Shown here: positions 785 through 16,999 of the stretch, in pieces
Layout: the number at the start of each line of letters is the position of its first letter
How positions within the stretch are numbered: the stretch's first letter is position 1
IMG/VR virus record: IMGVR_UViG_3300031952_000199
Location: 1-20,032 of that record
DNA from: a virus
Direction: 5' to 3' (one strand)
Length of the DNA: 20,032 bases
Made by a program: the position numbers and the translations under genes
The notes under the pieces: model-generated
The model's input: only the letters and a program-made list of their open reading frames with translations
Told to the model about the DNA's origin: nothing
The model's database searches: none

Positions 785-801
785 GTATTTATAGTAAATA
801 C
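785..801. repeat. Perfect 7-bp inverted repeat before the RHH gene
   Basis: GTATTTA-TAG-TAAATAC has perfect arms and a 3-nt spacer, 9 nt before the ATG of the ribbon-helix-helix gene. Proteins of that fold usually bind short inverted repeats, so this could be an autoregulatory operator. The left arm overlaps the TATTTATA promoter candidate (786-793), so binding would block it. This is inference from position only. Confidence 0.4.
786..793 (+). promoter_or_regulatory. TATTTATA promoter-like element 1
   Basis: TATTTATA lies 17 nt before ATG 811. It is one of four copies found on the + strand, all just upstream of start codons. The spacing suits a -10-type element giving a very short leader. 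Function is inferred. Confidence 0.4.
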
Positions 802-810
802 TCTATAAGT

Positions 811-963
811 ATGAAACGAAAGAAAGCTATTGTTGTAACTATAAATGAAGAAGATCGCATAAAATATAGATTGTTATGTGAAAAGTATAGTTATAATATG
901 ACCAAAAGAATAAGAAATTTTATAATTCAAGATATTAAATTAATGGAAAATGAGAAAAAATAA
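811..963 (+). CDS. Small ribbon-helix-helix DNA-binding protein
   Basis: A 50-residue protein starting MKRKKAIVVTINEED. It has the size and pattern of a MetJ/Arc/CopG-type ribbon-helix-helix protein. A basic N-terminal beta strand (residues 4-11, KKAIVVTI) is followed by helix 1 (about 13-26, EEDRIKYRLLCEKY) and helix 2 (about 31-43, TKRIRNFIIQDIK). Such proteins dimerise, and the paired strands contact the major groove. An inverted repeat at 785-801 just upstream could be its own operator. The end overlaps the next gene by 14 bp. The fold is called from hydrophobic spacing alone; an anti-host or phage regulatory role is inference. Confidence 0.6.
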   Translation: MKRKKAIVVTINEEDRIKYRLLCEKYSYNMTKRIRNFIIQDIKLMENEKK

Positions 964-1144
964 AAAAACTCATGAAAAATTTGTTAATCAATTAAAACAA
1001 ATACAACCAGAATTAGAAGTTTTATCAGAATATAAAGGTTCAGATGAAAAAATATTAGTGAAAGATAAAAATAATATTAAATTAATTAGAATAAATTATA
1101 CAGATAATATAGAAAATAAATTAATACTAATTATAAATAATTAA
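950..1144 (+). CDS. Small protein resembling homing-endonuclease N-terminal domain
   Basis: A 64-residue, lysine-rich protein. Residues 5-38 (THEKFVNQLKQ...ELEVLSEYKGSDEKILV) match the pattern THEeFi..l...np.i.vl..Y....kkI.v that commonly opens phage HNH and GIY-YIG-type endonucleases. In those proteins it is followed by a cysteine zinc ribbon; here there is no cysteine and no nuclease domain. It is either a decayed endonuclease fragment or a stand-alone DNA-binding domain. It overlaps the preceding RHH gene by 14 bp and ends 3 nt before the hub gene. Family assignment is by memory of the motif. Confidence 0.5.
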   Translation: MRKNKKTHEKFVNQLKQIQPELEVLSEYKGSDEKILVKDKNNIKLIRINYTDNIENKLILIINN

Positions 1145-1147
1145 CAT

Positions 1148-4100
1148 ATGGCTGACGAACTTAATAGAGAAAAAATATGGATTAATGAATTTAATAATAT
1201 TGTTATTGTTGATCCTAATAAATTAATAGGACAAGACGGCAAAGAAATTGAACGAATGGTTAAACATGAAGAATTAGCAATATATGCTAATTTAACAGCT
1301 CGTGTTTTTCCAAGAAGTAAATTATCACAAGATTCTATTAGCGGACCACAAATTATTCTTGAACTTGACGCACAAAATGTTAATTTCATGAAACCCAATG
1401 GTGATTTAACAAGTAATTGGACAGAACAATTTACAAATCCATCAACAGATACAACAAAAAATCAAACTTACTTTAAACCTAATAAAGAAGGATTTGGTAT
1501 AACTAATATAACTGTATCATATAATTCAGCATATATTCCACAAGTTGCTATAGAGTTTATTGATATAAGAGGTAAAAATTTATTTGAACATACTGATGAT
1601 CCAAATTCTCCTTACACAGCATTCTTTAATTTCCCATATCCTACTTTTGAATTAATATTAAAAGGATTTTATGGAAAAGCTGTAAAATATCAATTAAGTC
1701 TTATAAAATTCTCAGGAAGATTTGATAAAGGTAATTTTATAGTATCAACTAATTTTGTTGGACAAACATATGCTTTATTATCGGATATAACGATAAGTGA
1801 GATGATGCATGCTCCTTATATGTTTGCATTAACTCAAAATCCATTGCCACAACCAACAACTACTGTTAATAATAATACTGTATTAAATAACAGAGAAGGT
1901 ACGGTTATTAATTCAAGAGGAACTCAGGTTTTACATGAGATTTATACTGAATATAAACAAAAAGGATTATATGATATTAATAATCCAGAGTTAGCATTAT
2001 ATGATTTAGTTATTTTAACCCAAAACATTAATAATATAATTGAGAATAAATTAAATAAAGTAGATTTCGATAAATTAAATCAAGCTGAACTTTTCAGTAA
2101 AAGTTTATCTGATTATAAAAATATATTATCCAATTTCTCAAATAAATATTTAGATAGTGTTCCTAATAATAATGTATTATCTGTATTTAAAGACGGAATT
2201 GATGAAGATAAAAAATCAGTAGCTAATATAGACTTACAAAGGTCTATAAAAAATTATAGACAAATATTTGAAAATATTACAGAATATAAATTTCTTAATT
2301 TAGATGCAATATTACCAATTGATGAAGTTCCATTTTATGTCAATGGAGAATTTCAGTTAGGTATTTATTATAATCAATTATCGGATGTTGAAAAAGATTT
2401 TATTATTAATAAAAATACATATGAAAATGATATAAGTAAACAAGTAAATGATATAGTTGTTACAACTCTTGGATTCAGACCAACATTAAGAAATATTATA
2501 GCAGTTTTATGCGCTAATGCTGAAACATTTATTAGATTATTAGATGAAACACATACTAAAGCGTATAATATAAAAGTAACACCAGAAAGAAGAAAATTAT
2601 TTTTAAATAATAATATGGAATCAGTTGAAAAGGATAAAGATATAATTTATCCTTGGCCTCTTTATTATATAGATAAAAGTGCTGATAAATGCTTAACATC
2701 ATATGAACTAAAATATATAGGATCTACTGATTTGAGGTATATAACAGGTGATAGAAATATTTGGCCAGAGATAGATTTTGTTGAAAATTTTATTGAAGCA
2801 ACAACTATGGTAACACCAACAAGATTATCTTTATATGATACTGATCAAACTAATAAAAAAATAATATCCCCTATTGAGTTATTTAATTTAGCATATATAT
2901 ATGATTCTTCATTACTTATTAATACATTATATGAAATATGGGATAGATCTGTTTATTCAACTTATTATAATGGATATTCAACAAGATTAAATTTAAGTAG
3001 TGCAACTGATAATTTTATTAATACTTTAGGTATATTAGAATCAAATAATATTAAAATAGCAGCAGACAGTTCTGTGGTAATAAAAGAGTTTTTAAAAACA
3101 AATAGTTTTAATACAATTGATGATTTTACAAATCAATTAAGATCAATTTCACCTAATCAAAGATATCCAACATTATTAACCCAAAATTTTAATACTAATT
3201 ATATTAAAGATTTTTTTGAAAATGGTTCTAAAATATATAAATTTTCAGATTTTGAAAATAGGGTTCCACTTATTATAGATGATGTTAGTAAAAATAATAT
3301 TGATGCATTTTTAAAACAATCTAAAACTGAATTAACAATTACCGATACTTATCCGTTTACTGATATTTCTGGATGGACAAAAATAAATATAGCTAATGGA
3401 AATAATAAAAATATAAATCAGTTATATAATATTCTTGGTTCTTTATTTGTTGACACAAGAAGTAAGATTTTAACAGATAAAATTAATTCATCTGGTAGAT
3501 ATGTTAATTTTAATTATTTTACAGATACTAATTTTATTAATTTCAGTGGATCTGCTGATACTATATATAATGAAAAATATTCTGAGAATAATTTTAATAC
3601 TAATAATTCATGGAGAAATTTTTATGGAACTAAAGTGTCATCCACACCAACAAGTAATAGCCCCTTTCCATATATACAACCAAGTTTTATAAACAATTCA
3701 AATCAAAATATATCAGCAAATAGAAATAAAATATTTTTAACAGAGGGTAAGATTGATTACGGAATTAATTATAATCCTCAGAAAATTTCATCTGAACAAA
3801 TGGGTTCGCTTATTAATACACCATATTTTATAAATGCTTTACTTGAAGGAATAAATAATGAAAGAGTAAGTGGAGTTACTCCATCTTATATAACAGCATC
3901 TTATTTATTTTTAAATTCATTACCACTTAATACATTTAAGGAATTAATGATTGATGATAATTTAACTAGTGGATCAGGAAATAAATATGGTAATTATTTA
4001 TTTTCGTCATTTAATCAAATATCAGCAGTTCATAATATACCTTTAGTTTGGTTATTAAAGATTGGTTCAATATGGCATAGATATAAAGAATATATTAATA

Positions 4101-7100
4101 GTGGTGTTGATATACTTGATAATTGTTGGACAGATTTTAATTATATTAATTATTTTAGTACAGCTGGAACATTATCATATAATTATACTTTAACTGGAAC
4201 CAATACTAATATTTGTTTACAGAATTCTGTAAATCCAAATCAGGATATTGTTGATAATGGATTTTATCCATTACTTGTAAATGAAATAAATTATTTTGTG
4301 ACAGGAAAAGAATTGTTTCCATCATATGATGATAGTGGACTTAATTATCTTGTTAATAGTGATATTTTAAGATTAAATAAAATAACTAATAATACAATTG
4401 AAAATCCAATAGGGTGGAATTTAACAAATACAGCCAGTACACAAACATTAAATTTATGGTCATGTTACAGTAATTTAGATCCAGATGTTTATATAATATA
4501 TCCTAGTATCGGTGGATCAGGAATAAGTCAGGTTAAACAAGAATTACAATATCCTGATCCATTATTACCATCTTCAACATTATATGAAGATTTAAGAAAT
4601 AGAACTGAGATTAATAATGGTAGTATAAAATCCATATGGGGATTATCAACATATGGATATTTTAATAATATTACAACATTTAAACCAAAACCTTATCAAT
4701 ATATAAAAGTTATTGATAGCACAAAAGATGAACAATTTGCATTTACATTAGCCACTAATGACAAATATAGTAGTATAGAAGATATACTATCTGTTTTTAA
4801 TAAACAATCGCTTGATCAATTTGAAACATTATTTTTAAATTTTAGTAAATCATCATTACAATACGCAACAAATAACTCAACAATAAATCAATTCAATGAA
4901 ATTTATCCAACATTTCAGGATGTATTTAGATCCTTGCTTAAAGTTGGTAAATCAACAATAAATTCAGATATATTAAAGGATATAACTAAACAACAAATAT
5001 TTTCAGGTATTGAGAATATTCAAAAATTAGTGTCGGTTTATACTAGTTATATTCATACTAATCCTAATAATATTGACATGAGAATATTAAAATCATTTAT
5101 TGGTGATAATATTTTTAATGGAAACATATTATATGGAGAAGCATTTGGTGTTTATGATGGAATACAAACCCCAGAATTTATTAATGAATTGAAATTAAAT
5201 TTTGGTATATATACTAATCCTTTATTGGATTATAATAATCCTGCTAATTATTTTTTTAGTTTCTTTTCTGATAATAATATAAAAGAAAATGAAAGCAATG
5301 TTGAAAATCTTAAAAAAATTATAGATATATGGATAACTAATAAAATTAATAATAGTGGATATACATCATCAGATTTGTCAACAACTATAAAAACATTAAT
5401 ATCTAATATAGAAGGTGAAAGAGATACATTTTTATTAAAAACATTAACTAATTCTAAAAAAGTAATACCAGATTTAACTAAGAGTGATACTGATATTAAA
5501 TTCTCTCAATTAAATAATGATAATCTTAAATTAGAATTTTACAGAACCTTTAAATCATTTAATGATAAATGGGTATCTGGGATGGATGTAGGTAATAATA
5601 ATTTATTATCTCAGTTTTTATTTTTGGATAAAGGTAATAGAGATATTGGTGATAATATATTGATAAATTTTAGCTTCTTATCAAATCTTAACGACTCAAC
5701 CAATATGAAGAATTCATTTTTTGGATTATTAGGATCAATTTTTACAAATAATTTTATTAATTTTTTACCACTCCCATCGTATATTAATTTTTGGGGTGGA
5801 AAATTAAATGATAACGGCACTATTGATTTATCTTCGCAAGCTAATACTGCTGAAGATACATTTGGTACTTTTTTAGAAGTTGATTCAGCTAAATCAGGTC
5901 CTAAATTTTTATGCCAATATATTGGTAATGAATCTGAGAATTTAGATGTAAAGGATCCAATAGCTAAATATAAAAGTGATTCTTTTTTTATAGATAATCA
6001 TGAAGCAAATCCATTATTATCAAGTTGTCAAAATTTTGAAAAAAGCAATAAAGTTGTTGCATTTTTTGTTGATTATGGGATACAAAATCAAAATATGTTT
6101 TATGATATATCATTAGATATGAAAGAAGATGGTAAATTAACTGGTGAATATTTTACTGTATTACAAGATTTAATTGATCAAAAAGGCGGAAAATCTTTAG
6201 CAGTTGGTGGCGTTAATTTATTTGAAATATATAAAAGAAGATCATATGCTTGTAAAATAGCAATGTTAGGTGATATGTGTATTCAACCAACGATGTATTT
6301 TCAATTAAGATATATACCAATATTTAATGGTGCTTATTTAATAACTGATGTAAGACATACAATAACACCAAATAATATAATTACAGAATTTGTTGGGACA
6401 AGACAAAGTATATTTAGTTTACCAACACCTGAAAGTTTTCTTATTAGTATTAATAAAAGTTATTTACAAACTGCAAAATTATTAGCATCACAAAAAGAAC
6501 AAATAATATTAAATGGTTATACTGGACATATATTATCTAATAATTTATGGAACAATAATGGTGCATTATCAGAATTTATTAAACCAACATCACAAGGTAT
6601 AGGACAAGTTATTGATCCGTATGATACAATAAGAGGTGGTAACACAATGAATGAAATGGAAATTGATGTTATTGGTGAAACATCAGTATATTCAATAGGT
6701 GATGGAATTATTCAAACAATACAATATAATAATAATGATGATGGAATAGAAGTAACCATAATTTATAAAAATATTAAAATAGATGCAATTAATTATACAG
6801 GAGATATAACTGTTAATTATAAACATTTAAAAATATTTAGTTGGAAAATAATAGATCAAAATGGAAAAGATAATATTATAGTAGATGCACCTAATCCTAG
6901 ATACATTAATAGAAATGATAATCAAACACTTATTGATTTAAGATCAAAAAATATTAAAATATTAAAAGGATGGGAAATAGGTATATCTGGAAATGGTTTA
7001 GAATTAAGTAATGGCGCAAATTCAACATCAGGAAGAATAAAGGGACCTCATATATCTATTGAGACTTATAAAAATAATGGTAAACAAGAAAAATTTAACC

Positions 7101-7135
7101 CAGAGTATTTATTTGGATTATATTCATCTCGTTGA
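1148..7135 (+). CDS. Giant baseplate hub protein (gp27/late control D-like, degenerate M23 C-terminus)
   Basis: A 1995-residue protein, very large for a baseplate component. The N-terminal region (about 65-225, e.g. ITVSYNSAYIPQVAIEFIDI and FELILKGFYGKAVKYQL) looks like the start of hub proteins of large phages. The long middle is rich in N, I and Y and resembles nothing I recognise. Residues about 1585-1760 (CKIAMLGDMCIQPTMYFQL, IFNGAYLITDVRHTITPNN, EFVGTRQS) carry the late-control-D/gp27 signature of a tail-hub beta domain. The C-terminus (about 1822-1990) has the M23 peptidase layout: SIGDGII, VNYKHL, GWEIGISGNG, KGPHISIE. Two of three expected zinc ligands are replaced (E1836 and S1970; D1840 is kept), so it is probably not an active lysin. 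A structural hub role is inferred. There is no Shine-Dalgarno site; the start is the only ATG fitting the gap to the previous gene. Confidence 0.7.
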   Translation: MADELNREKIWINEFNNIVIVDPNKLIGQDGKEIERMVKHEELAIYANLTARVFPRSKLSQDSISGPQIILELDAQNVNFMKPNGDLTSNWTEQFTNPSTDTTKNQTYFKPNKEGFGITNITVSYNSAYIPQVAIEFIDIRGKNLFEHTDDPNSPYTAFFNFPYPTFELILKGFYGKAVKYQLSLIKFSGRFDKGNFIVSTNFVGQTYALLSDITISEMMHAPYMFALTQNPLPQPTTTVNNNTVLNNREGTVINSRGTQVLHEIYTEYKQKGLYDINNPELALYDLVILTQNINNIIENKLNKVDFDKLNQAELFSKSLSDYKNILSNFSNKYLDSVPNNNVLSVFKDGIDEDKKSVANIDLQRSIKNYRQIFENITEYKFLNLDAILPIDEVPFYVNGEFQLGIYYNQLSDVEKDFIINKNTYENDISKQVNDIVVTTLGFRPTLRNIIAVLCANAETFIRLLDETHTKAYNIKVTPERRKLFLNNNMESVEKDKDIIYPWPLYYIDKSADKCLTSYELKYIGSTDLRYITGDRNIWPEIDFVENFIEATTMVTPTRLSLYDTDQTNKKIISPIELFNLAYIYDSSLLINTLYEIWDRSVYSTYYNGYSTRLNLSSATDNFINTLGILESNNIKIAADSSVVIKEFLKTNSFNTIDDFTNQLRSISPNQRYPTLLTQNFNTNYIKDFFENGSKIYKFSDFENRVPLIIDDVSKNNIDAFLKQSKTELTITDTYPFTDISGWTKINIANGNNKNINQLYNILGSLFVDTRSKILTDKINSSGRYVNFNYFTDTNFINFSGSADTIYNEKYSENNFNTNNSWRNFYGTKVSSTPTSNSPFPYIQPSFINNSNQNISANRNKIFLTEGKIDYGINYNPQKISSEQMGSLINTPYFINALLEGINNERVSGVTPSYITASYLFLNSLPLNTFKELMIDDNLTSGSGNKYGNYLFSSFNQISAVHNIPLVWLLKIGSIWHRYKEYINSGVDILDNCWTDFNYINYFSTAGTLSYNYTLTGTNTNICLQNSVNPNQDIVDNGFYPLLVNEINYFVTGKELFPSYDDSGLNYLVNSDILRLNKITNNTIENPIGWNLTNTASTQTLNLWSCYSNLDPDVYIIYPSIGGSGISQVKQELQYPDPLLPSSTLYEDLRNRTEINNGSIKSIWGLSTYGYFNNITTFKPKPYQYIKVIDSTKDEQFAFTLATNDKYSSIEDILSVFNKQSLDQFETLFLNFSKSSLQYATNNSTINQFNEIYPTFQDVFRSLLKVGKSTINSDILKDITKQQIFSGIENIQKLVSVYTSYIHTNPNNIDMRILKSFIGDNIFNGNILYGEAFGVYDGIQTPEFINELKLNFGIYTNPLLDYNNPANYFFSFFSDNNIKENESNVENLKKIIDIWITNKINNSGYTSSDLSTTIKTLISNIEGERDTFLLKTLTNSKKVIPDLTKSDTDIKFSQLNNDNLKLEFYRTFKSFNDKWVSGMDVGNNNLLSQFLFLDKGNRDIGDNILINFSFLSNLNDSTNMKNSFFGLLGSIFTNNFINFLPLPSYINFWGGKLNDNGTIDLSSQANTAEDTFGTFLEVDSAKSGPKFLCQYIGNESENLDVKDPIAKYKSDSFFIDNHEANPLLSSCQNFEKSNKVVAFFVDYGIQNQNMFYDISLDMKEDGKLTGEYFTVLQDLIDQKGGKSLAVGGVNLFEIYKRRSYACKIAMLGDMCIQPTMYFQLRYIPIFNGAYLITDVRHTITPNNIITEFVGTRQSIFSLPTPESFLISINKSYLQTAKLLASQKEQIILNGYTGHILSNNLWNNNGALSEFIKPTSQGIGQVIDPYDTIRGGNTMNEMEIDVIGETSVYSIGDGIIQTIQYNNNDDGIEVTIIYKNIKIDAINYTGDITVNYKHLKIFSWKIIDQNGKDNIIVDAPNPRYINRNDNQTLIDLRSKNIKILKGWEIGISGNGLELSNGANSTSGRIKGPHISIETYKNNGKQEKFNPEYLFGLYSSR

Positions 7136-7143
7136 TATTTATA
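7136..7143 (+). promoter_or_regulatory. TATTTATA promoter-like element 2
   Basis: TATTTATA begins one base after the hub stop codon and 15 nt before ATG 7159. It sits in a weak imperfect hairpin (CGTT at 7130-7133 pairing with AACG at 7151-7154). Confidence 0.4.
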
Positions 7144-7158
7144 TTAAAATAACGTTTT

Positions 7159-7323
7159 ATGAACGAAATTAATGATAAAATTAATGATTATCTTGAAAAT
7201 AAAGAACAAGATGAAGTCATTAATGAAATAGAAACCAAAAAAATTCAAATTAAAGACGGTTTGATAGAAAGAGTTGATAAGAAACTCATAACAGAAGACG
7301 GTAGATTATTATTGAAAGATTAA
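7159..7323 (+). CDS. Small acidic phage protein, unknown function
   Basis: A 54-residue charged protein starting MNEINDKINDYLENKEQDE. The C-terminal half (IKDGLIERVDKKLITEDGRL, then LLKD) is compact and looks conserved: a helix followed by a short hairpin-like tail. It has no cysteine, no signal peptide and no membrane segment. It follows a TATTTATA element and ends 2 nt before the next gene, so the two are probably co-translated. I do not recognise the family. Its place after the hub gene makes a virion-assembly or chaperone role possible but unproven. Confidence 0.6.
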   Translation: MNEINDKINDYLENKEQDEVINEIETKKIQIKDGLIERVDKKLITEDGRLLLKD

Positions 7324-7325
7324 AA

Positions 7326-7988
7326 ATGAAAAGAACCTTACAGGAAGAATTAAATCGATTTAAACAGATCGATAGTTATAGAAAATCATTAACTGAGCAA
7401 GCTGCGCCATTACCTGCAGCGCCAGTTACTAATGAATTACCTCCTGCTGATTTACCACCAGTTGAAACAGCACCCCCACCACCAGATAATGAATTAGGTG
7501 GTGATGAAACAGCACCAATTGATTCGGCATTACCTCCTCCAGTAGATTCAACACCATTACCTGCGGACAATACTTCAGCACCAGAAGAAATTGATGTTAC
7601 TGACATTGTTAAAACATCTAAGAAATTAGATAAAAATTTATCAACCCAAGGGCATAGTTTAGATGCGCAGAATCAAAAATTAGATCAATTAATGTCAACA
7701 ATAACTAATCTTGAAGCAAAATTGGGTAATATTGAAAGTCTTAATCAAAAGGTAGAAGATTTAAGTACAAAGATTGAAACATTAAGACCACCTACTCCAG
7801 TTGAAAAATTAGAAATGAGATCATTGGATAGTTATCCTTATAATCAAAAATTGACTGATTATTGGCAAGAGAAGACAGAAGATATGGATGCTAACACAAC
7901 TAAGGGTTATGAAATAACAACTGATGATGTTGGTAATTTTAATGATACAGATATTAAACAGAGTTTAACCGATTTTGGTGAACAATAA
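7326..7988 (+). CDS. Proline-rich, coiled-coil phage protein, unknown function
   Basis: A 220-residue protein in three parts. Residues 1-25 form a basic helix (MKRTLQEELNRFKQIDSYRK) like the short N-terminal 'FkqI' helices on structural proteins of several T4-like phages. Residues 26-86 are low-complexity, rich in proline, alanine and aspartate, and visibly higher in G+C than the surrounding DNA. Residues about 90-150 are a predicted coiled coil (KLDKNL, QNQKLDQL, LEAKLGNIESLNQKVEDL). The tail (153-220), containing TPVEKLEMRSLDSYPYNQKL, looks globular and conserved. This architecture suits a tether, scaffold or fibre-attachment protein, but that is inference. A terminator follows directly. 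Confidence 0.6.
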   Translation: MKRTLQEELNRFKQIDSYRKSLTEQAAPLPAAPVTNELPPADLPPVETAPPPPDNELGGDETAPIDSALPPPVDSTPLPADNTSAPEEIDVTDIVKTSKKLDKNLSTQGHSLDAQNQKLDQLMSTITNLEAKLGNIESLNQKVEDLSTKIETLRPPTPVEKLEMRSLDSYPYNQKLTDYWQEKTEDMDANTTKGYEITTDDVGNFNDTDIKQSLTDFGEQ

Positions 7989-8011
7989 TATTTAATTAAT
8001 TAAAAAAGATA

Positions 8012-8045
8012 AAAATCCTGGACAAATGTTCGGGATTTTTTATTT
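8012..8045 (+). terminator. Rho-independent terminator
   Basis: The 5' arm AAAAATCCTGGAC (8012-8024) and 3' arm GTTCGGGATTTTT (8029-8041) form a 13-bp stem with two G-T wobbles, and the loop is AAAT. The 3' arm ends in a T-run continuing as ATTTT. It separates the structural genes from the gp32 operon. Confidence 0.85.
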
Positions 8046-8049
8046 TAAA

Positions 8050-8081
8050 TTTGACTTTTGAAATTCATATGGTTATGTTTA
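8050..8081 (+). promoter_or_regulatory. Bacteroidetes-type promoter upstream of gp32 gene
   Basis: TTTG (8050-8053), 20 nt, then TATGTTTA (8074-8081) matches the Bacteroidetes primary promoter (-33 TTTG, -7 TAnnTTTG) at all but the last base. It can also be read as a sigma70-like promoter, TTGACT - 17 nt - TATGTT. It lies just after the terminator and about 38 nt before the gp32 start, so it likely opens the replication operon as an early or middle promoter read by host polymerase. Confidence 0.55.
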
Positions 8082-8118
8082 ATACAATAACATTTTAAAT
8101 CATAAATTTTTAAAACAA

Positions 8119-9003
8119 ATGACAACATACGAATCAGTACTGCAACAGTACGAAAACAATCAACCAAAAGAAAGAAAACCACAAATTAGTAAGGAAGAAT
8201 TATTTAAAAAGTATTTTAATTTAATTTTACCTAAAGGTGTAAAAGAAGCTAATAAGAGAATTAGAATTTTACCAACAACAGATGGTAGTTCACCATTTAA
8301 AGAAGTTTGGTTCCATCAAATACAAATTAAAGGTGATTGGATGACACTTTATGATCCAGAAAAAAATGATAATGAAAAAAGTCCATTAGCAGATGTTGAA
8401 AGAAGTTTATTAGCAACAGGAAAAGAATCTGATAAAGAATTATCAAAAAATTATAAATCACGTAAATATTATGTGATTAAACTTATTGATAGAGATAATG
8501 AAGCAGATGGTGTTAAAGTGTGGCGTTTTAAACATAATTGGAAACAACAAGGTATTTTAGATAAAATTATTCCTATTTGGAAAAATAAAGGTGATATTAC
8601 CGATAAAGAAAAAGGAAGAGATCTTATTGTATCATTACAAATTGCTAAAACAAATAAAGGTAAGGAATATACAGATGTTAAAACAATAATGTATGATGAT
8701 CCTACGCCATTGTCCACTGATCCAGCATTAATTGAAGCATGGTTAGCCGATACTACTGAAGCTAAGAAAGCATATGCAAGAAAACCTATTGAATTTTTAG
8801 AAGCAATAGCTCATGGTGAAAAACCAAAGTGGGATAGCAAGAAAAATAAATTTGTTCATGGTGAAGAAGCAACTACTGTATTTGAAGGGGATGCAACTGC
8901 TAATACTAATCCGCAATCTCCATCACCAACAAATGATGTTAATATTAATATTCCTGCAGTTGAAATATCAGATGAAGGTCCTGATGATGAATTGCCTTTT
9001 TAG
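8119..9003 (+). CDS. 32: Single-stranded DNA-binding protein, gp32-like
   Basis: A 294-residue protein of T4 gp32 size. It has a basic N-terminal region for cooperative self-association (residues 1-48, ending in KKYFNLILPKGVKEANKRIR), a central OB-fold-like core (RILPTTDGSSPFKEVWFHQI; KYYVIKLIDRDNEADGVKVW), a linker, and an acidic tail ending SDEGPDDELPF. That tail is typical of SSB proteins and in T4 recruits replication and recombination partners. The T4 zinc site (C/H cluster) is missing: the protein has no cysteine at all. UvsX, exonuclease and helicase genes follow, matching its partners. The start ATG has only A-rich sequence before it. It is the first gene after the promoter candidate at 8050. 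Confidence 0.8.
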   Translation: MTTYESVLQQYENNQPKERKPQISKEELFKKYFNLILPKGVKEANKRIRILPTTDGSSPFKEVWFHQIQIKGDWMTLYDPEKNDNEKSPLADVERSLLATGKESDKELSKNYKSRKYYVIKLIDRDNEADGVKVWRFKHNWKQQGILDKIIPIWKNKGDITDKEKGRDLIVSLQIAKTNKGKEYTDVKTIMYDDPTPLSTDPALIEAWLADTTEAKKAYARKPIEFLEAIAHGEKPKWDSKKNKFVHGEEATTVFEGDATANTNPQSPSPTNDVNINIPAVEISDEGPDDELPF

Positions 9004-9248
9004 AAAGGTTAAATAATAAAAATAACTACCTTTTTAATTTACATCATTGGTCATACAATCAGGAAGATTGGTTAGATATAATTGAATTAACAATTAAAGA
9101 ACATCATTTTTTTCATAGATATTTAATTTATGATAGCAACACAAAATTTTATATAGATAAAAATGGCAATTTATTAGATACAAAAGAAAAACATTTAGAA
9201 TATTATAAATCATTAAATAAAAAATTAACTACAACAAATGGCAATTAA
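8991..9248 (+). CDS. ATG-less reading frame between gp32 and uvsX
   Basis: An open frame of 85 codons runs from just after a TGA (8988-8990) to TAA 9246-9248. Its composition looks like protein (e.g. LFNLHHWSYNQEDWLDIIEL, then HHFFHRYLIYDSN, KFYIDKNGNLLD). It contains no ATG, GTG, TTG or CTG. The only near-cognate options at the beginning are ATT 8991 and, further in, ATA or ATT. It overlaps the gp32 end by 13 nt and the uvsX start by 11 nt, a coupling pattern seen for real genes. Possibilities are an ATT start, a -1 frameshift at the T-run of the gp32 stop (CCT TTT TAG), or a gene that lost its start. It fills the whole 234-nt gap. No family recognised. Confidence 0.4.
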   Translation: MAFLERLNNKNNYLFNLHHWSYNQEDWLDIIELTIKEHHFFHRYLIYDSNTKFYIDKNGNLLDTKEKHLEYYKSLNKKLTTTNGN

Positions 9249-10239
9249 GAAAAAAGAGTTTGATTTAAAAAAGTTACAGGAAAAGTTTTCAACTAAAACC
9301 CAATATAAAGAAGATAAATATTTTTCCTGTGGTGAAGAATTTTTAAATGCTTGTGGTTTACCTGGTCCATCTATTAATGGTGTAACTACATTTTTGGGGC
9401 ATTCCAACACGTCTAAAACTACTGCTATGATTATAGCAGCAAGTAATGCCCAAAAGAAAGGAATATTGCCTGTATTCGTTATAACCGAAAAGAAATGGCA
9501 ATGGGAACATGCAAAATTACTTGGATTAGAATGTGAAAGAGGTGATGATGGGGTATGGAATGGATTATTTTTGTTTAATGATAATTTCGATTATATTGAA
9601 CAGGCAACTGATTATGTTAATAGTTTGTTAGATGCGCAAGAAAGAGGTGAAATACCATACGGGCTTGCTTTCTTTTGGGATTCCATTGGTTCTGTACCAT
9701 GTAAAATGACATTCGAAGGAAAGGGTGGTAAAATGCATAATGCAGCAGTACTGGCTGATAAAGTAGGGATGGGTTTAACATCAAGAGTTACTAAATCAAA
9801 GAAGATGGATTATCCATATGATAATTCTATAACCTTTGTTAACCAACCTTGGGTAGAATTACCAAGTAATCCATTTGAACAACCAAAAATCAAAGCAAAA
9901 GGTGGTGAAGCGATATTTCTTAATAGTTCTTTAGTGTTTTTATTTGGTAATCAGAAAAATTCAGGAGTATCTTATTTAACAGCAACTAAAGATAAACGAA
10001 AAGTAACTTTTGCAACCAGAACCAAAGTATCCATATTAAAAAATCATATGAATGGACTTGGTTATCAAGATGGGAAAATTATTGCAACACCTCATGGTTA
10101 TATTCCAGATACTGCAGACGCAATAGAAGAATATAAAAACAAATATTCAGAATATTGGAAAAATATATTAGGTACATCTGATTTTAATTTAAGAGAAGAA
10201 TCAGAAGAAGAATCAGTTGAAATTTTAGATGAAAAATAA
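9238..10239 (+). CDS. uvsX: UvsX/RecA-like recombinase
   Basis: A 333-residue RecA-fold ATPase that coats single-stranded DNA and drives strand exchange in phage recombination-dependent replication and repair. Visible motifs: a P-loop GHSNTSKT at 54-61, using the UvsX-like S-K-T in place of the canonical G-K-T; E84 in VITEKKW as candidate catalytic glutamate; Walker B-like LAFFWDS ending at D148; and VNQPWV at 201-206 near the L2 DNA-binding loop. The tail (318-333) is acidic. Length is close to T4 UvsX (about 390) but shorter at the C-terminus. It lies between the gp32 and exonuclease genes as expected for a replication cassette. The ATG at 9238 follows ACTACAACAA, with no Shine-Dalgarno motif. 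Confidence 0.85.
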   Translation: MAIKKKEFDLKKLQEKFSTKTQYKEDKYFSCGEEFLNACGLPGPSINGVTTFLGHSNTSKTTAMIIAASNAQKKGILPVFVITEKKWQWEHAKLLGLECERGDDGVWNGLFLFNDNFDYIEQATDYVNSLLDAQERGEIPYGLAFFWDSIGSVPCKMTFEGKGGKMHNAAVLADKVGMGLTSRVTKSKKMDYPYDNSITFVNQPWVELPSNPFEQPKIKAKGGEAIFLNSSLVFLFGNQKNSGVSYLTATKDKRKVTFATRTKVSILKNHMNGLGYQDGKIIATPHGYIPDTADAIEEYKNKYSEYWKNILGTSDFNLREESEEESVEILDEK

Positions 10240-10244
10240 AAAAT

Positions 10245-10379
10245 ATGTGTAGCTGTAAAAATAGTTTAAAAAAGAAGGTTGCTGATCAGTCAAAGAAAGA
10301 AAATGTTTTAGCAACCTTAAGTGGTAAAATTAATCTTACTGTATTGAAAAATAAGATTAAAGAAATTGTAGGGAAATAG
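10245..10379 (+). CDS. Small CxC-motif protein, unknown function
   Basis: A 44-residue, strongly basic protein, MCSCKNSLKKKVADQSKKEN followed by VLATLSGKINLTVLKNKIKE and IVGK. The N-terminal C2-S-C4 could bind a metal in a dimer; the rest forms one or two amphipathic helices. It starts 5 nt after uvsX and fills most of the gap before the exonuclease gene. A perfect 9-bp inverted repeat (10275-10318) lies inside it. I know no family. Confidence 0.55.
   Translation: MCSCKNSLKKKVADQSKKENVLATLSGKINLTVLKNKIKEIVGK
10275..10318 (+). repeat. Perfect 9-bp inverted repeat inside the CxC gene
   Basis: AAGGTTGCT (10275-10283) and AGCAACCTT (10310-10318) are perfect complements, with a 26-nt spacer holding TGATCA. 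No T-run follows, so it is not a standard terminator. It could form an RNA hairpin between uvsX and the exonuclease gene. Confidence 0.5.
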
Positions 10380-10406
10380 TATTGTTAACCTTTTAATTTA
10401 TGAAAA

Positions 10407-11402
10407 TTGATAAAAACTTTAGTAGTTGATGGGGATTCTATTTTCAAAATAGGATTGCATGGAATAACAAATCAAATCTATAAGAATAAGCATATTGGAG
10501 CAATATATTATTTTTTAACATCAGTTAAGAAACGTCTTGAAACCAGTAATTATGATAAGGTAGTTGTTTTTTGGGATGGTGAAGATAATTCAATTCAACG
10601 TAAAAATATTTATCCTAATTATAAATCTAACAGAAAAAATTTATTAACACCAGAACAGGAAGAAAATAAATTCTATCAACGTAATAGAATTAAACAATAT
10701 CTTGAAGAAACTTATATAAGACAAGGACAGTTTAATGAATGTGAGAGTGATGATTGTATTGCATATTATTGTCATAGTACACCACAAGAAATAAAAACAA
10801 TAATGTCTGGTGATAAAGATTTATCACAATTAATATCACCTACTGTTAATTATTACATGCCAAGGTTAGCAAAATTGCTTAATGATGGTGATATGATAAA
10901 AATGCATGAGATTACAGTACCAGTTAAAAATGTTAAAACAGTAAAAATACTTTGTGGTGATTCATCAGATGTTATAACAGGAATACAATCATTAGGAGAA
11001 AAAACATTATTAAAATTTTTTCCTGAAATAGTTGAACGGGAAATTTCTGTTGATTATATTAAAACAAGAGCTGAACAATTGTTAATTGAAAATAAAGATA
11101 ATAAAGTAATTCAGAATTTATTAAGTGGTAAAACAAAGCATGGAATATTTGGTGAAGAATATTTTATTATGAATGATAAATTAATTAATCTTGAAAATCC
11201 TTTATTAACAGAAGAAGCAAAGAACGAAATATTAACAATAATAAATGATAAAATTGATCCAGAAGGTAGAGGTTGGAAAAATTTAATAAAAATGATGACA
11301 GAAGATGGATTATTTCATTTCTTACCACAGAATGATAATGCATGGACTGGATTTTTTACACCATACTTAAAATTAGCAAGAAAAGAAACAAAAAAAATAT
11401 GA
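10407..11402 (+). CDS. 5'-3' exonuclease, FEN/T4 RNase H-like
   Basis: A 331-residue flap-endonuclease-family nuclease that removes RNA primers and 5' flaps on the lagging strand. Acidic metal-binding clusters appear in family order: LVVDGDS (D8, D10), VVFWDGED (D57), ECESDDCIAY (E111, E113, D115, D116), SGDKDLSQ (D136, D138) and the helix-hairpin-helix region LCGDSSDVITGIQSLGEKT (D185, D188). NYKSNR at 71-76 corresponds to the conserved basic stretch. The only frame-correct start after the upstream TGA is TTG 10407. An ATG at 10400 is out of frame by one base, so either a TTG start is used or the sequence has a one-base difference in AAAA. It overlaps the next gene by ATGA (11399-11402). Confidence 0.8.
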   Translation: MIKTLVVDGDSIFKIGLHGITNQIYKNKHIGAIYYFLTSVKKRLETSNYDKVVVFWDGEDNSIQRKNIYPNYKSNRKNLLTPEQEENKFYQRNRIKQYLEETYIRQGQFNECESDDCIAYYCHSTPQEIKTIMSGDKDLSQLISPTVNYYMPRLAKLLNDGDMIKMHEITVPVKNVKTVKILCGDSSDVITGIQSLGEKTLLKFFPEIVEREISVDYIKTRAEQLLIENKDNKVIQNLLSGKTKHGIFGEEYFIMNDKLINLENPLLTEEAKNEILTIINDKIDPEGRGWKNLIKMMTEDGLFHFLPQNDNAWTGFFTPYLKLARKETKKI

Positions 11403-11839
11403 AAAACGAAGTAGCAAAATTTGAACTAGCCTTAAGATTAAATGACAATTTTGTTTGTCAGAGGTATTTTACAGTTAAGGATTATAATCCTAAAATAAGA
11501 AGATCTGTTGAAATATATGAAGCTATGAATTATGTTAAAAAAATTATAATTCATAATTTATATATTAAAAGTTCTAATTATATAACTGAAATATATAACG
11601 GACAATATGGCATAAATGCTATGCCAACCCTTGATTATGAAACACAAGACAATTTAATTTTAGAATTAAAGTTAGGAAATAGTGTAATATCACAATCAGC
11701 TATCGATATTTCACAATATCCTTCTAAAGTTAGATATAATATTGATATCAGAGGAAATCTTCATAATATAATTGATTTTATGACAGAAACATTATCTTTA
11801 GATGAAGTTACATCAGAATATTTAGGAACCAAACTTTAA
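11399..11839 (+). CDS. Hypothetical phage protein between exonuclease and helicase genes
   Basis: A 146-residue protein starting MKNEVAKFELALRLNDNF. The ATG overlaps the exonuclease stop (ATGA), which decides the start over an in-frame ATG inside the exonuclease gene (11342). It appears to be an alpha/beta protein with beta-rich stretches (FELALRLNDNFVCQRYFTV; DNLILELKLG) and a C-terminal acidic helix (HNIIDFMTETLSLDEVTSEY). No catalytic motif, zinc site, signal or membrane segment is visible. Its place between the exonuclease and helicase genes suggests a replication accessory protein, such as a helicase loader or adaptor, but no motif proves this. Confidence 0.6.
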   Translation: MKNEVAKFELALRLNDNFVCQRYFTVKDYNPKIRRSVEIYEAMNYVKKIIIHNLYIKSSNYITEIYNGQYGINAMPTLDYETQDNLILELKLGNSVISQSAIDISQYPSKVRYNIDIRGNLHNIIDFMTETLSLDEVTSEYLGTKL

Positions 11840-11841
11840 CA

Positions 11842-11849
11842 TATTTATA
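11842..11849 (+). promoter_or_regulatory. TATTTATA promoter-like element 3
   Basis: ACATATTTATAAACAA lies directly after the preceding stop codon and 22 nt before ATG 11872. The flanks resemble those of copy 4 (16976): both have ACATATTTATA followed shortly by AAACAA. Confidence 0.4.
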
Positions 11850-11871
11850 AACAATATAACAAATTAAAATT

Positions 11872-14340
11872 ATGAGTGGACAAGATAATTTCGGGTACTT
11901 AGGGTACAACTTTCAAATAAAACTTTTAAATAATATATTAATCGATAAAAATTTTGGGAAGAATATTGTTGAACATATAAATCCAAAATATTTTGATAAT
12001 CAATATTTTAAATTTATCATGCAAATGATAAAAGAGTATTATAACAAATATTCTACTATACCATCATTTGAAGCATTGGAACAAGTTACATTACTTGAAC
12101 AATCATCAGATATGGCAACTAAAAATATTGGTGATATGTTAATAGAAATTAAGAATATCCCTATGGAAGATAATGCTTTCGTTCAGGAAAAATCTTTAAA
12201 ATTCTGTAAACAACAAGAATTAAAAAAAGCAATTAAAAAAGTTAACTCCATTATGGAGAAAGGTGAATTTGAGAGTTATGATTTATGTGAAGAATATATT
12301 CGTAAAGCAACTCAAATTGGTGAACAGGATAATTCAAATATTGAAGTATTTGAAAATGCAAATGATGTAATGGAAAAAGATTTCAGACACCCTATCCCAA
12401 CTGGAATAAATGGAATTGATAATCTTTTAAATGGTGGATTAGCTAAAGGAGAATTAGGATTAGTATTAGCACCAAGCGGAATCGGAAAGTGCCAGCCCAT
12501 GTCATCTAAGATTTTAACTCCAAATGGATGGAAGAAAATGGGTGATATTACATTAGGTGATGAAGTGATGGGTAGTGATGGAAAAAAACAATATGTTATT
12601 GGTGTATATCCACAAGGGGAAAGAAAAATATTTAAAGTTAAATTTACAGATCAAACTGAAGTGTTATGTGATGCTGAACATATATGGTCAGTTAATACAC
12701 TTAATATGAGAACTGCAAAAACTAGATTAAAAGGAAAATCAATTAGAAAATCTAATTTTGGCTACAAAAATATTTTAACAAAAGATTTAATTGATATTAA
12801 AAAAAGAGGAATATATAATTACAGACTTCCAACAATGCTACCATCTGAATTTAACAATATTGAATTACCTATTAATCCATATGTGTTAGGTATATTACTT
12901 GGCGATGGATGTTTTAGTAATAACATGATACAATTTGTGACAAAAGATAATGAAATAATCAATAATATTGATAAATTATGCGATTGTGAAATAACAAATA
13001 CGTCTAATAGTAGAGAATTTGATCATTATAACAATGATAATACAATAACAAAAGTTAAAAGAAATATTAATATAGTATCACTTAAAAAATATAAAGTTTT
13101 AATAAAAGAATTAGGATTATTTGGTACATTATCAAATAATAAATTTATACCTAAAAATTATATATATAATTCTATTGATAATAGAATGCAATTATTACAG
13201 GGGTTAATGGATAGTGATGGTTATATAAGTAAAAAAGGTATAATGGATTTTACTAGTGTATCTAAACAATTAACTGATGATGTTAGAGAATTAGTTTTAT
13301 CTTTAGGTGGAACAGTGAGAATGTTAAATAAAACTCCAAAATATAAATATAAAGGAATATTAAAAGAAGGACAATGTTGTTATATTGTAAGAATGAGTTT
13401 TCCTGATAATGGAATTATTCCTTTTAAATTAACAAGAAAATTAGAAAGATTTAAATCCAGAACTCATTATAAAAATCAGAAATTTGTTAAATCAGTTGAA
13501 TATTCTCATGTCGAAGAAGCTCAATGCATAAAAGTATCTAATGCTGATGAATTGTATGTAACTGATGATTTTGTATTAACACATAATACAACGATGTTAA
13601 CTAAATTAGCAAATTATGCATATAATGTCGGATTAAATGTATTGCAAATTATTTTTGAAGATAACCCAAAAGTTATACAAAGAAAACATTATACAATATG
13701 GTCAAAAATTTCACAGAATAAATTATCTGATAACAGAGAATTAGTTTTAGCTAAAGTTGAAGAATATAAAAACAGAGGTGGTAAATTAATAATAAAAAAA
13801 TTACCTTCAGATTCATTGAATATTATTCAGATTAAAAATCAAATAAGAAAAATGATAAGTGAAGGATTCAAACCAGATATTGTAGTATTAGATTATATTG
13901 ATTGTGTTTTACCTGTAGCAAATAGTAGTGCTAGCGAATGGAAGAATGAAGGATCTATCATCAGACAATTTGAAGCAATGTCATCAGAACTTGATTTTGC
14001 TGGATGGGTTGGTGTGCAAGGAAATAGAGATAGTATGTCATCTGATGTTGTAACAAGTGATCAAATGGGCGGATCAATAAAGAAAGCGCAGGTTGGACAT
14101 GTTATTATAACAATAGCTAAATCATTACAACAAAAAGAACTTGGACTTGCAACTATGGCTTTAGTAAAAAGTCGTATAGGAAAAGATGGGGTTGTATTTG
14201 AAAATTGTATTTTTAATAATGATACAATGGAAATATCAACTGATCAAAGTACCACATTATTAGGTTACGAAAAAGATGCAGAAGAAGCAGAAGAAGAAGA
14301 AAGAAATAAAAGAGTAAAACAATTAATGGACAACAAATAA
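11872..14340 (+). CDS. Replicative DNA helicase, DnaB/gp41-like, interrupted by an intein
   Basis: The 822-residue precursor is a hexameric 5'-3' fork helicase (456 residues after splicing, close to T4 gp41) plus a 366-residue intein. Residues 1-150 are the helical N-terminal domain. The P-loop APSGIGK (200-206) is split by the intein and resumes as TTM from 573. Walker B is DIVVLDYID (D674). The VGVQGNRD stretch (713-720) is the usual sensor motif, and SRIGKDG (767-773) carries the likely arginine finger R768. The tail is acidic and lysine-rich. The start ATG follows a TATTTATA element by 22 nt, and the reductase gene begins 1 nt after the stop. Splicing is required to restore the ATP site, so the helicase should be inactive before splicing. 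Confidence 0.88.
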   Translation: MSGQDNFGYLGYNFQIKLLNNILIDKNFGKNIVEHINPKYFDNQYFKFIMQMIKEYYNKYSTIPSFEALEQVTLLEQSSDMATKNIGDMLIEIKNIPMEDNAFVQEKSLKFCKQQELKKAIKKVNSIMEKGEFESYDLCEEYIRKATQIGEQDNSNIEVFENANDVMEKDFRHPIPTGINGIDNLLNGGLAKGELGLVLAPSGIGKCQPMSSKILTPNGWKKMGDITLGDEVMGSDGKKQYVIGVYPQGERKIFKVKFTDQTEVLCDAEHIWSVNTLNMRTAKTRLKGKSIRKSNFGYKNILTKDLIDIKKRGIYNYRLPTMLPSEFNNIELPINPYVLGILLGDGCFSNNMIQFVTKDNEIINNIDKLCDCEITNTSNSREFDHYNNDNTITKVKRNINIVSLKKYKVLIKELGLFGTLSNNKFIPKNYIYNSIDNRMQLLQGLMDSDGYISKKGIMDFTSVSKQLTDDVRELVLSLGGTVRMLNKTPKYKYKGILKEGQCCYIVRMSFPDNGIIPFKLTRKLERFKSRTHYKNQKFVKSVEYSHVEEAQCIKVSNADELYVTDDFVLTHNTTMLTKLANYAYNVGLNVLQIIFEDNPKVIQRKHYTIWSKISQNKLSDNRELVLAKVEEYKNRGGKLIIKKLPSDSLNIIQIKNQIRKMISEGFKPDIVVLDYIDCVLPVANSSASEWKNEGSIIRQFEAMSSELDFAGWVGVQGNRDSMSSDVVTSDQMGGSIKKAQVGHVIITIAKSLQQKELGLATMALVKSRIGKDGVVFENCIFNNDTMEISTDQSTTLLGYEKDAEEAEEEERNKRVKQLMDNK
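12490..13587 (+). mobile_element. Intein with LAGLIDADG homing endonuclease in the helicase P-loop
   Basis: The intein covers residues 207-572 of the helicase gene. It starts with C207 (CQPMSSKILTPNGW, the usual block A pattern), has a block B-like VLCDAEHIWSV (H270), and ends VTDDFVLTHN with the terminal HN. The next extein residue is T573, suitable as the +1 nucleophile. Two LAGLIDADG motifs are present: LGILLGDG (339-346) and LLQGLMDSDG (441-450), each with its acidic residue, so the homing endonuclease looks intact. Insertion is between GK and TT of the P-loop, a known favoured site because it is invariant. Boundaries are read from splice residues. Confidence 0.88.
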
Positions 14341-14341
14341 T

Positions 14342-16951
14342 ATGGAAATAGAAGAACAAATTAAAACATACACATATGATGAAGTTTATAATACATCATT
14401 AGAATATTTTAAAGGAGATGAATTAGCAACAAATGTTTTTATATCAAAGTATTGTTTAAAATCAAAAAATGGCGATTACTTGGAATCTAACCCTGATGAT
14501 ATGCATCATCGTATGGCAAAAGAATTTGCAAGAGTAAGTACATTATCTGAAAGTGAAATCTATGAATTATTTAAAGATTTTAAATATATTATTCCACAAG
14601 GATCTGTAATGTATGGATGCGGTAATAATGAACAAACAATAAGTTTATCAAACTGTTTTGTTGTTGGACAACCCAAAGATCAATATTCATCAATTATATT
14701 AAAAGATCTTGAATTAGCATCTATATATAAAAGAAGGGGCGGTGCAGGAATAGATATATCAACATTAAGACCAAGAGGTACAATTGTTAATAATGCAGCT
14801 GGATCATCAACAGGTGCGGTATCTTTTATGGAAAGATATTCTAATACAACTCGTGAAGCAGCTCAAAATGGAAGAAGAGGAGCACTCATGATTACTTTAG
14901 ATGTTAGACATCCAGATATTGAAGAGTTCATTCAAATTAAACAAGATTTAACAAAAGTTACTGGTGCTAATATCAGTATATTACTTCATGATGATTTTAT
15001 GAAAGCTGCGGAAAATGATGAAGAATATATTTTAAGATTTCCATGTGATAGTAATGAAGCAGAAGATTATGTTAATGATTTAAGAATTAATGGTGGTGAA
15101 TTTGATAAAGAAGTTTTTGATTTTGAAAGAGATATACCATGCAATAAACTTCAAATATTAAAAGGTAATTATAGTAATCCAGGTGACATTTATTTTAAAA
15201 GAATAAAAGCTAAAGATATTTGGAATAAAATTATTAAAGCAGCACATAATAGTGCTGAACCAGGATTAATATTTAAAGATAAACAAGATAATTATTCTCC
15301 AAGTCATATCATTAAAGATTTTGAAAACGTCACAACTAATCCCTGTTCAGAAATTATGATGGGTGAATATGATAGTTGTCGTTTGATGTGTATTAATATG
15401 TTTAATTTTATTGATAATCCATTTGAAGAAAATAGTACATTTAATTTAAATAAATGGTATCACATATGTTATAGAGCTATGGAACTTAGTGATGGATTAG
15501 TTGATCTTGAATTAGAGAAAGTAGAACAAATAATTAATAAAATTAAGTTAGATGATATATATGATAAAAATGAACTTAATCTTTGGGAACAGGTATATAA
15601 AATAGGAAAAAATGGTAGAAGAACTGGACTTGGTATAACTGGACTCGGTGATGCAATAGCTGCTCTTGGATATAAATATGATTCATCACAAGCATTAGAT
15701 ATAATTAATAAAGTAATGGATATTAAATTATCTGCTGAATTAGATGCATCATGTGATATGGCTTCAAGAAAAGGAATGTACCCTGCTTTCGATTACAAAA
15801 CAATACAAGAAGATTTTAAAAAATCTGGATCATTTTTTAATTTTATCAGAGAAAATAATCCAGCAATGGAAAGTATTATTTTAAATAAAGGACTACGTAA
15901 TATTAGTTGGAGTACTGTTGCACCAACAGGAAGTCTTTCTATACTAGCTCAAACATCAAGTGGTATAGAACCATTATTTCAACCATATTATACAAGAAGA
16001 AAAAAAATTAATCCTGCTGATACAAATACAAGGGTTGACTTTACAGATAAAATGGGAGATAAATGGCAAGAATATCCAGTACTTCATCCAAAATTCGTAG
16101 AATGGTGTACATCAAAGAATAGTGGTAATACAAAACAATTTTTAGAAACATTAGATAAAAAAACATTACAAGGATTATTTGAATTATCTCCATGGTATAA
16201 ATCCACAGCTAATGATATTGATTGGATGAAGAGAATAGAAATGCAAAGTATTATACAAAAATATACAACTCATAGTATTAGTTCAACTATTAATTTACCA
16301 GAAGATGTTAGTATAGATACTGTATCTAAAATATATTTTGAATCATGGAAGAAAGGATTGAAGGGGATCACGATTTATCGAGATAAATGTAGAGATGGGG
16401 TTTTAGTGTCGCAAAAAGAAATAAAATCTGCGACAGAATTTGTATATAATAATGCACCTAAAAGACCAAAAGATTTACCATGTGATATACATACAACTAA
16501 GGTTAAAGGAATTAATTATAATGTTATAGTTGGATTATTTGATGGTTTACCATATGAAGTGTTTGCAATATCAGAAGGTGAAGCCTTAAAGGGTAAAGGA
16601 CATCTTGAAAAGGTATCTAAAAAGAAATACAGAGTGGTTAATGAAGATAAATCTGATATTATAATAAAAGACATAATAAAAGAGATGTCTTCAGAAGAAG
16701 AAGCAATAACTAGATTACTTAGTATAAGTTTAAGACATGGTGCTAATATTCAATTTATTGTTGAACAACTTAATAAAACATCAGGTAGTTTGGTTAATTT
16801 TGATAAAGCTATAGCTAGAATATTAAAAATGTATATACCAGAAGAACAATTAATAAGTAGATCTAAATGTGGTGATTGTGGTAGTAGTAATCTTAAATTT
16901 GAGAATGGTTGTAGTGCATGCCTTGATTGTGGCAGTTCTCGTTGCGGATAA
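14342..16951 (+). CDS. nrdJ: Ribonucleotide reductase, class II (adenosylcobalamin-dependent)
   Basis: An 869-residue enzyme reducing ribonucleotides to deoxyribonucleotides with a B12 radical. Motifs in order: SLSNCFV (C105), RRGGAGIDISTLRPRG (132-146), SSTGAVSFMERY, TNPCSE (N333, C335 thiyl site, E337), YDSCRLMCINM (C346, redox partner of C105), TGLGITGLGDA, APTGSLSILA and SSGIEPLFQP in the barrel, then HSISSTINLPEDV and GITIYRDKCRDG. A TSCPD-like domain (about 705-840, PYEVFAISEG) and a C-terminal cysteine cluster (CGDCG...C..CLDCGSSRCG) follow; these shuttle electrons in this class. No ATP cone is visible at the N-terminus. It starts 1 nt after the helicase stop. No small-subunit gene is in the window, as expected for class II. 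Confidence 0.9.
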   Translation: MEIEEQIKTYTYDEVYNTSLEYFKGDELATNVFISKYCLKSKNGDYLESNPDDMHHRMAKEFARVSTLSESEIYELFKDFKYIIPQGSVMYGCGNNEQTISLSNCFVVGQPKDQYSSIILKDLELASIYKRRGGAGIDISTLRPRGTIVNNAAGSSTGAVSFMERYSNTTREAAQNGRRGALMITLDVRHPDIEEFIQIKQDLTKVTGANISILLHDDFMKAAENDEEYILRFPCDSNEAEDYVNDLRINGGEFDKEVFDFERDIPCNKLQILKGNYSNPGDIYFKRIKAKDIWNKIIKAAHNSAEPGLIFKDKQDNYSPSHIIKDFENVTTNPCSEIMMGEYDSCRLMCINMFNFIDNPFEENSTFNLNKWYHICYRAMELSDGLVDLELEKVEQIINKIKLDDIYDKNELNLWEQVYKIGKNGRRTGLGITGLGDAIAALGYKYDSSQALDIINKVMDIKLSAELDASCDMASRKGMYPAFDYKTIQEDFKKSGSFFNFIRENNPAMESIILNKGLRNISWSTVAPTGSLSILAQTSSGIEPLFQPYYTRRKKINPADTNTRVDFTDKMGDKWQEYPVLHPKFVEWCTSKNSGNTKQFLETLDKKTLQGLFELSPWYKSTANDIDWMKRIEMQSIIQKYTTHSISSTINLPEDVSIDTVSKIYFESWKKGLKGITIYRDKCRDGVLVSQKEIKSATEFVYNNAPKRPKDLPCDIHTTKVKGINYNVIVGLFDGLPYEVFAISEGEALKGKGHLEKVSKKKYRVVNEDKSDIIIKDIIKEMSSEEEAITRLLSISLRHGANIQFIVEQLNKTSGSLVNFDKAIARILKMYIPEEQLISRSKCGDCGSSNLKFENGCSACLDCGSSRCG

Positions 16952-16960
16952 AATCAATTT

Positions 16961-16999
16961 GTTGCATTTGTTACATATTTATATATAAACAAATACAAC
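16961..16999 (+). repeat. Hairpin just before the HNH gene start
   Basis: GTTGCATTTGTT (16961-16972) and AACAAATACAAC (16988-16999) pair over 12 positions with one C-A mismatch. The loop is 15 nt. The second arm ends at the base before ATG 17000. The loop holds TATTTATA. Confidence 0.65.
16976..16983 (+). promoter_or_regulatory. TATTTATA promoter-like element 4, in hairpin loop
   Basis: TATTTATA lies 16 nt before ATG 17000, inside the loop of the 16961-16999 hairpin. A transcript starting a few bases downstream would lack the left arm and could not fold the hairpin. Confidence 0.4.

Follow-up and report, generated by a model that had tools for sequence, protein, structure and literature searches.

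TATTTATA as the probable core of late promoters in a T4-like phage lineage likely to infect Bacteroidota

The T4 late promoter contains the octamer TATAAATA, numbered −13 to −6, and depends on gp55 with gp33 and the gp45 clamp; versions of it are described for KVP40, 44RR, S-PM2 and Aeh1 (PMC2988020). Hairpin-gated late promoters are described at the homing endonucleases I-TevI, I-TevII, I-TevIII and SegB of T4 and at Aeh1 MobE (PMC2988022). Here we describe the octamer TATTTATA in a viral DNA stretch of 20,032 nucleotides (nt), positions 1 to 20,032 of IMG/VR record IMGVR_UViG_3300031952_000199, referred to here as the window. Judged from sequence, and with a probability that we put at roughly 0.85, TATTTATA forms the core of late promoters in a T4-like lineage probably infecting Bacteroidota, a new consensus of a known kind.

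Like the T4 late promoter, the element is a single 8-bp AT-rich box that would lie about a helical turn before the RNA start, has no −35 element, adjoins an AT-rich stretch of the kind that is melted, and stands before late genes, with a gp55-like sigma factor encoded in relatives. It differs from it in the middle of the box (TT in TATTTATA, AA in T4), in a likely start one base closer, in that a search of Flavobacterium phage immuto, the closest named relative (by gp25), gave neither clamp nor clamp loader of the T4 type, and in that some boxes lie near enough to the ATG for leaderless mRNA. TATTTATA would act as a T4 late promoter does; a strict assignment to the T4 late-promoter family is not made, because the boxes differ in sequence and the complete genome searched, that of immuto, gave no T4 clamp.

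Two further systems bear comparison. The primary-sigma promoter of Bacteroidota has TTTG at −33. Its −7 consensus is TAnnTTTG (PMC9723704). This promoter (TTTG-N20-TAnnTTTG) resembles the present element in its AT-rich −7/−10 box and precedes ssb and DNA polymerase genes of these same phages, whereas TATTTATA sites show neither the −33 TTTG nor a box ending in TTTG. Rhodothermus phage RM378 shares with the lineage a top-ranked upstream octamer (TATTTAAA), an A-rich start region and a gp55-like gene; its box differs from TATTTATA in the last bases and mostly lies 5–10 nt before the ATG. The literature searched contained nothing relevant on TATTTATA as a phage promoter and no late promoter for this T4-like group. 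The motif would provide a readable late-gene signal for a large, mostly uncultured group of phages, predicting RNA starts to within a base and sorting genes under host promoters from genes under late promoters.

Placement of TATTTATA in the window and in relatives

A first-pass annotation of the window placed TATTTATA on the + strand at 786, 7136, 11842 and 16976, 15–22 nt before an ATG. The positions are exact, the window has no further + strand copy, and all four copies are intergenic, the following ATG being 17, 15, 22 and 16 nt away; ACATATTTATA and a nearby AAACAA are indeed common to copies 3 and 4. That the octamer occurs only before start codons is true of the window (4 of 4) and untrue of relatives, in which 40 sense copies lie within genes, so that the original wording was a small-sample statement. 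The reverse complement occurs inside genes, as had been said: it has five window copies, four in genes and one in a gene relic at 17652. Chance copies were rightly expected in coding DNA, with weak statistical weight (2.3 expected from synonymous-codon shuffles against none seen, P about 0.05). On both strands together the window holds 9 copies against 11.5 expected and hence no over-representation. As this count is ordinary, placement alone is informative: four intergenic copies are seen against 0.37 expected from local composition (P = 6e-4).

The record consists of this 20,032-bp fragment alone and lacks the rest of the phage genome; genome-wide counts were made in relatives, collected through gp25, ssb and sigma factor searches. 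Genes were called per genome and all octamers were ranked by their frequency upstream of genes versus sense coding DNA. TATTTATA ranks first in eight long relatives (650 kb), with 80 copies in 15.3 kb of upstream DNA and 40 in 629 kb of coding DNA, an 80-fold difference; same-letter permutations average 11.6 upstream and 92 coding copies. It is also first of all octamers in immuto (24 upstream, 4 coding; 107-fold). The first-pass annotation had offered equal abundance inside and upstream of genes as grounds for dropping its idea, which these counts leave standing. Orthologous sites are not independent, and 46–111 sites are left after de-duplication. General avoidance of TATTTATA inside genes was considered and rejected, the coding copies in relatives being 40 sense versus 27 antisense.

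As positive controls, the ranking recovers the late box TATAAATA of T4 at rank 2, together with early GTTTAC-type words, and AATAAATA/TATAAATA in cyanophage Syn33; TATAAATA ranks only 65 in immuto and 72 in the relatives. Upstream words of Mel-JY01 are ATATTTAT/TATTTATA, and in RM378 A-rich DNA follows the top octamer TATTTAAA (L180–L186). DAC19 and Lbo-JY46, found via ribonucleotide reductase, were rejected as relatives: they are another kind of phage without the motif and for that reason are taken as negative controls. They show no enrichment of TATTTATA and have the host-type words TACCTTTG/TATCTTTG among their top octamers. Lbo-JY46 (PP438436, L155–L161) is recorded as a Leptolyngbya phage, but its enriched word is the Bacteroidota −7 box TATCTTTG; the culture may have been contaminated with a Bacteroidota bacterium that is the true host.

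The genes behind the two kinds of box fall into different classes. Late boxes stand before tail tube, tail sheath, baseplate hub, gp25 and neck or head–tail adaptor families in relatives, and host-type boxes before ssb (8 of 10 cluster members), DNA polymerase and an Arc-like repressor.

Box anatomy, predicted RNA start and hairpins at HNH genes

Across about 100 non-redundant sites, the base preceding the box is almost never T, the stretch at indices 8–13 after it is AT-rich (nearly C-free and A-rich), and index 12, the fifth base past the box, is A in 84%; in immuto, index 12 is a purine in 25 of 25 sites. The same analysis of T4 and Syn33 places the purine peak one base later, at index 13, which is the base expected from the −13 to −6 numbering of the T4 box, so the approach finds the right base where the answer is known. 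For TATTTATA the likely RNA start is predicted at the A 4–5 nt past the box. No −35 element is seen: in 111 sites there is no conserved position or spaced word upstream of the box.

The distance from box to ATG is 3–4 nt in 13 of 89 sites and 1 nt in two, and otherwise ranges from 10 nt to about 60 nt. None of the 89 lies at 5–9 nt, versus 14.7% of control octamers. Such bimodality is expected if RNA starts 4–5 nt past the box and a leader, where there is one, measures at least about 6 nt. Wrongly assigned start codons are an unlikely cause of the 3–4 nt class, since orthologues with boxes at 15, 18 or 30 nt share the starting methionine. Some mRNAs would accordingly lack a leader; in F. psychrophilum, leaderless transcripts account for 5.5% of the mRNAs that were mapped (PMC9723704).

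An inverted repeat (16960..17000, + strand) has copy 4 in its loop, with the 5′ arm TGTTGCATTTGTT at 16960–16972 and the 3′ arm AACAAATACAACA at 16988–17000 ending on the A of the ATG. The repeat is 13 bp long and its RNA hairpin has a folding energy of −9.6 kcal/mol (z −2.9). It precedes a putative HNH endonuclease gene (17000..17581, + strand), assigned by HNH/endonuclease matches in PHROG, whose product may have homing activity. The 3′ arm begins with the predicted start A16988, so late RNA could not form the stem. The same layout, with different arm sequences, recurs at HNH homologues at L060, L057, L317, L327, L338, L353, L367, L380, L389 and others. An inverted-repeat score of at least 19 is reached at 9 of 14 HNH late sites and at none of 81 other late sites (P 6e-7), and copies 1–3 of the window have no significant hairpin. 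Three other HNH genes (L340, L375 and L377) have the box 3 nt before the ATG and are candidates for leaderless mRNA, not hairpin-gated; L340 and L375 have a separate strong hairpin further upstream.

This arrangement resembles the hairpin and late-promoter design described for I-TevI, SegB and Aeh1 MobE (PMC2988022), in which the position of the promoter leaves late RNA without the 5′ arm of a hairpin that lies where the endonuclease gene begins. It differs in that the stem abuts or overlaps the AUG, as against the Shine–Dalgarno site in the T4 systems, in having TATTTATA as its box, and in recurring across many HNH genes with unrelated arms. In several folds the stem adjoins the AUG directly and leaves it partly unpaired; for this reason, silencing is deduced from the geometry. 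The design would carry the I-TevI-style placing of a promoter within a silencing hairpin over to phages whose hosts do not depend on Shine–Dalgarno sites.

The likely reader of the box and competing explanations

The likeliest reader of the box is host RNA polymerase with a gp55-like sigma factor of the phage, which would recognize a single AT-rich element one helical turn before the RNA start with no −35 box. Transcription from the A 4–5 nt past the box would give leaders of about 6–30 nt, or leaderless mRNA where the box is 3–4 nt before the ATG. At HNH genes, read-through RNA would fold a hairpin against the start codon and be silent, and late RNA without the 5′ arm would be translatable, so that these parasitic DNA-cutting genes would be kept silent until late infection. 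Promoter activity, the gp55-like protein as reader, late timing, silencing and leaderlessness are all parts of the scheme that we infer.

A gp55-family profile matches a 248-residue open reading frame (ORF) in G001 and G003 and the 232-residue gp118 of immuto (encoded at 78174–78872), and Mel-JY01 and LR756508 also have gp55-like homologues. A profile of this gp55-like group in turn matches RM378 (E 3e-12), Syn33 (5e-5) and T4 gp55 (0.002), and gives nothing above noise in DAC19 and Lbo-JY46; its best match in the PDB is T4 gp55 (7D7C, E 0.0056). The C-terminal clamp-binding motif of T4, SLDFLY, is absent from the gp55-like proteins, an absence not counted because the same pattern also misses Syn33 gp55; phrog_12791 matched nowhere and is uninformative. 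The T4-type clamp (gp45) and clamp-loader (gp44) families match T4 and Syn33 and have no match in immuto, a complete genome, in RM378 or in the IMG/VR relatives; these phages may have a very diverged clamp, and Mel-JY01 has gp44. The lineage is a natural test case for whether gp55-type late transcription needs the replication clamp. That the system is clamp-independent, with the phage sigma factor itself recognizing TATTTATA and about 15% of late sites (box 3–4 nt before the ATG) leaderless in Bacteroidota hosts, is a tentative proposal to which we give somewhat less than even odds.

Several observations weigh against the late-promoter reading. The similarity to gp55 is remote, and the gp55-family profile also matches 2 of 14 control bacteria, so that a match alone may mean only a sigma-like protein ('sigma region 2'). 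The window, only a 20-kb fragment, shows no sigma gene. An AlphaFold model of the gp55-like protein has low confidence (predicted local distance difference test score, pLDDT, of 61), and a Foldseek search with it lists several sigma factors among the top matches, none significant (E > 0.1); neither is used as evidence. LR756508 (L187–L196) has a gp55-like gene and no clear enrichment of TATTTATA in the 200 kb examined, an unexplained exception. The gene classes overlap, in that two ssb members fit the late pattern and four of five DNA polymerase members also have TATTTAT about 60 nt upstream, and copy 3 in the window precedes a helicase gene, which is not an obvious late gene.

The idea in the first-pass annotation of a −10-type element for a phage-modified polymerase or sigma factor, distinct from the T4 box TATAAATA, draws support from the upstream enrichment, the lack of a −35 element and the fixed likely start A, and further from the partition of late and host-type genes, the gp55-like sigma factor of relatives and the hairpin layout at HNH genes. 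The promoter might instead be read by another phage factor, either a phage RNA polymerase or a different sigma, and have nothing to do with the gp55-like gene. The link to that gene is one of co-occurrence only and LR756508 breaks it; the box nevertheless keeps the T4 layout (TATNNATA, no −35), and DAC19 and Lbo-JY46, which have no gp55-like gene, also lack the motif, so we judge another reader unlikely. It is still less probable that unmodified Bacteroidota RNA polymerase uses the octamer as a variant −7 box (TAnnTTTG) of the host primary sigma. The two boxes are similarly AT-rich, in two ssb relatives TATATTTATA overlaps a box that has TTTG about 20 nt upstream, and TTTG stands at a spacer of 18–22 in 7 of 100 late sites versus 3 of 100 at a control spacing. 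Yet the 111 sites show no −33 signal and the TATTTATA box has no TTTG, true host-type boxes coexist before other genes of the same phages, and the phages that use TACCTTTG/TATCTTTG (DAC19 and Lbo-JY46) are not enriched in TATTTATA.

An RNA-leader signal acting in ribosome binding, translation or RNA stability, which the first-pass annotation had allowed as a second option, would also explain a place upstream of start codons, and Bacteroidota, which do not use Shine–Dalgarno sites, are reported to have AT-rich upstream signals (PMC3160421). It fits worse than a promoter, since the base preferences, including the A at index 12, keep their position with respect to the box and not to the ATG, from which the box lies anywhere between 3 and about 60 nt; it leaves the empty 5–9 nt interval unexplained, and a box in the hairpin loop at HNH genes suits a promoter, not a leader element. 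We consider it very improbable. Chance arising from AT-rich composition accords with a window-wide count no higher than expected, and is refuted for the motif as a class by its placement (4 intergenic copies against 0.37 in the window; 80 upstream copies against 11.6 for permutations in relatives), which reduces it to a negligible explanation; any single window site could be chance.

Sites and neighbouring features of the window

The window carries, by PHROG matches, genes for ssb, a UvsX-like recombinase, an exonuclease, a DnaB-like helicase, an HNH endonuclease and a gp6-like baseplate wedge; also present are a gp25-like baseplate wedge gene and a B12-type ribonucleotide reductase, named after annotated homologues. 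This gene set (ssb, UvsX-like, gp6-like, gp25-like and others) marks the window as part of a T4-like myovirus. Upstream of ssb (8119–9003) is a candidate host-type promoter, TTTG-N20-TATGTTTA (8050..8081, + strand), read from the sequence and without TATTTATA. Most ssb orthologues have host-type boxes, and since these promoters are of the Bacteroidota kind, the host is probably a Bacteroidota bacterium. The same probably holds for the hosts of the lineage as a whole, which is T4-like, mostly uncultured, and large or widespread. A terminator-like hairpin, AAATCC...GGATTTTTT, lies at 8013–8043, immediately 5′ of the host-type promoter; similar TGTCGGGAT hairpins stand before late promoters in relatives.

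All four putative late promoter boxes are on the + strand. Copy 1 (786..793; predicted RNA start A798) precedes an ORF for a small basic protein (811–963), after which come ORFs at 950–1144 and 1148–7135, the latter of 1,995 residues. Copy 2 (7136..7143; predicted start A7148) directly follows the stop codon of 1148–7135 and precedes an ORF at 7159–7323; it is conserved before the orthologues in L208, L220, L222, L227 and L233. Copy 3 (11842..11849; predicted start A11854), before the DnaB-like helicase gene (11872–14340), is conserved in L210 and L212, is replaced by TATTTATT in L218 and is absent from some other orthologues. Copy 4 (16976..16983; predicted start A16988) is that of the HNH endonuclease gene.

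Inserted into the P-loop of the DnaB-like helicase is an intein-like segment (12492–13584; frame GIGKC...THN-TTM) with motifs of the homing-endonuclease type, and intein-bearing PHROG families match the helicase at residues about 200–579. Between the HNH gene and gp25 is the gene relic (17547–17889, − strand), an open frame whose upstream end has no start codon. Among the relatives, CATAAACT is itself strongly enriched upstream of genes, and L085, upstream of 13405, has, like its orthologues, a conserved inverted repeat (GTGTG...CACAC) and, after it, CATAAACTATTTATA in front of a gene for 1,801 residues.

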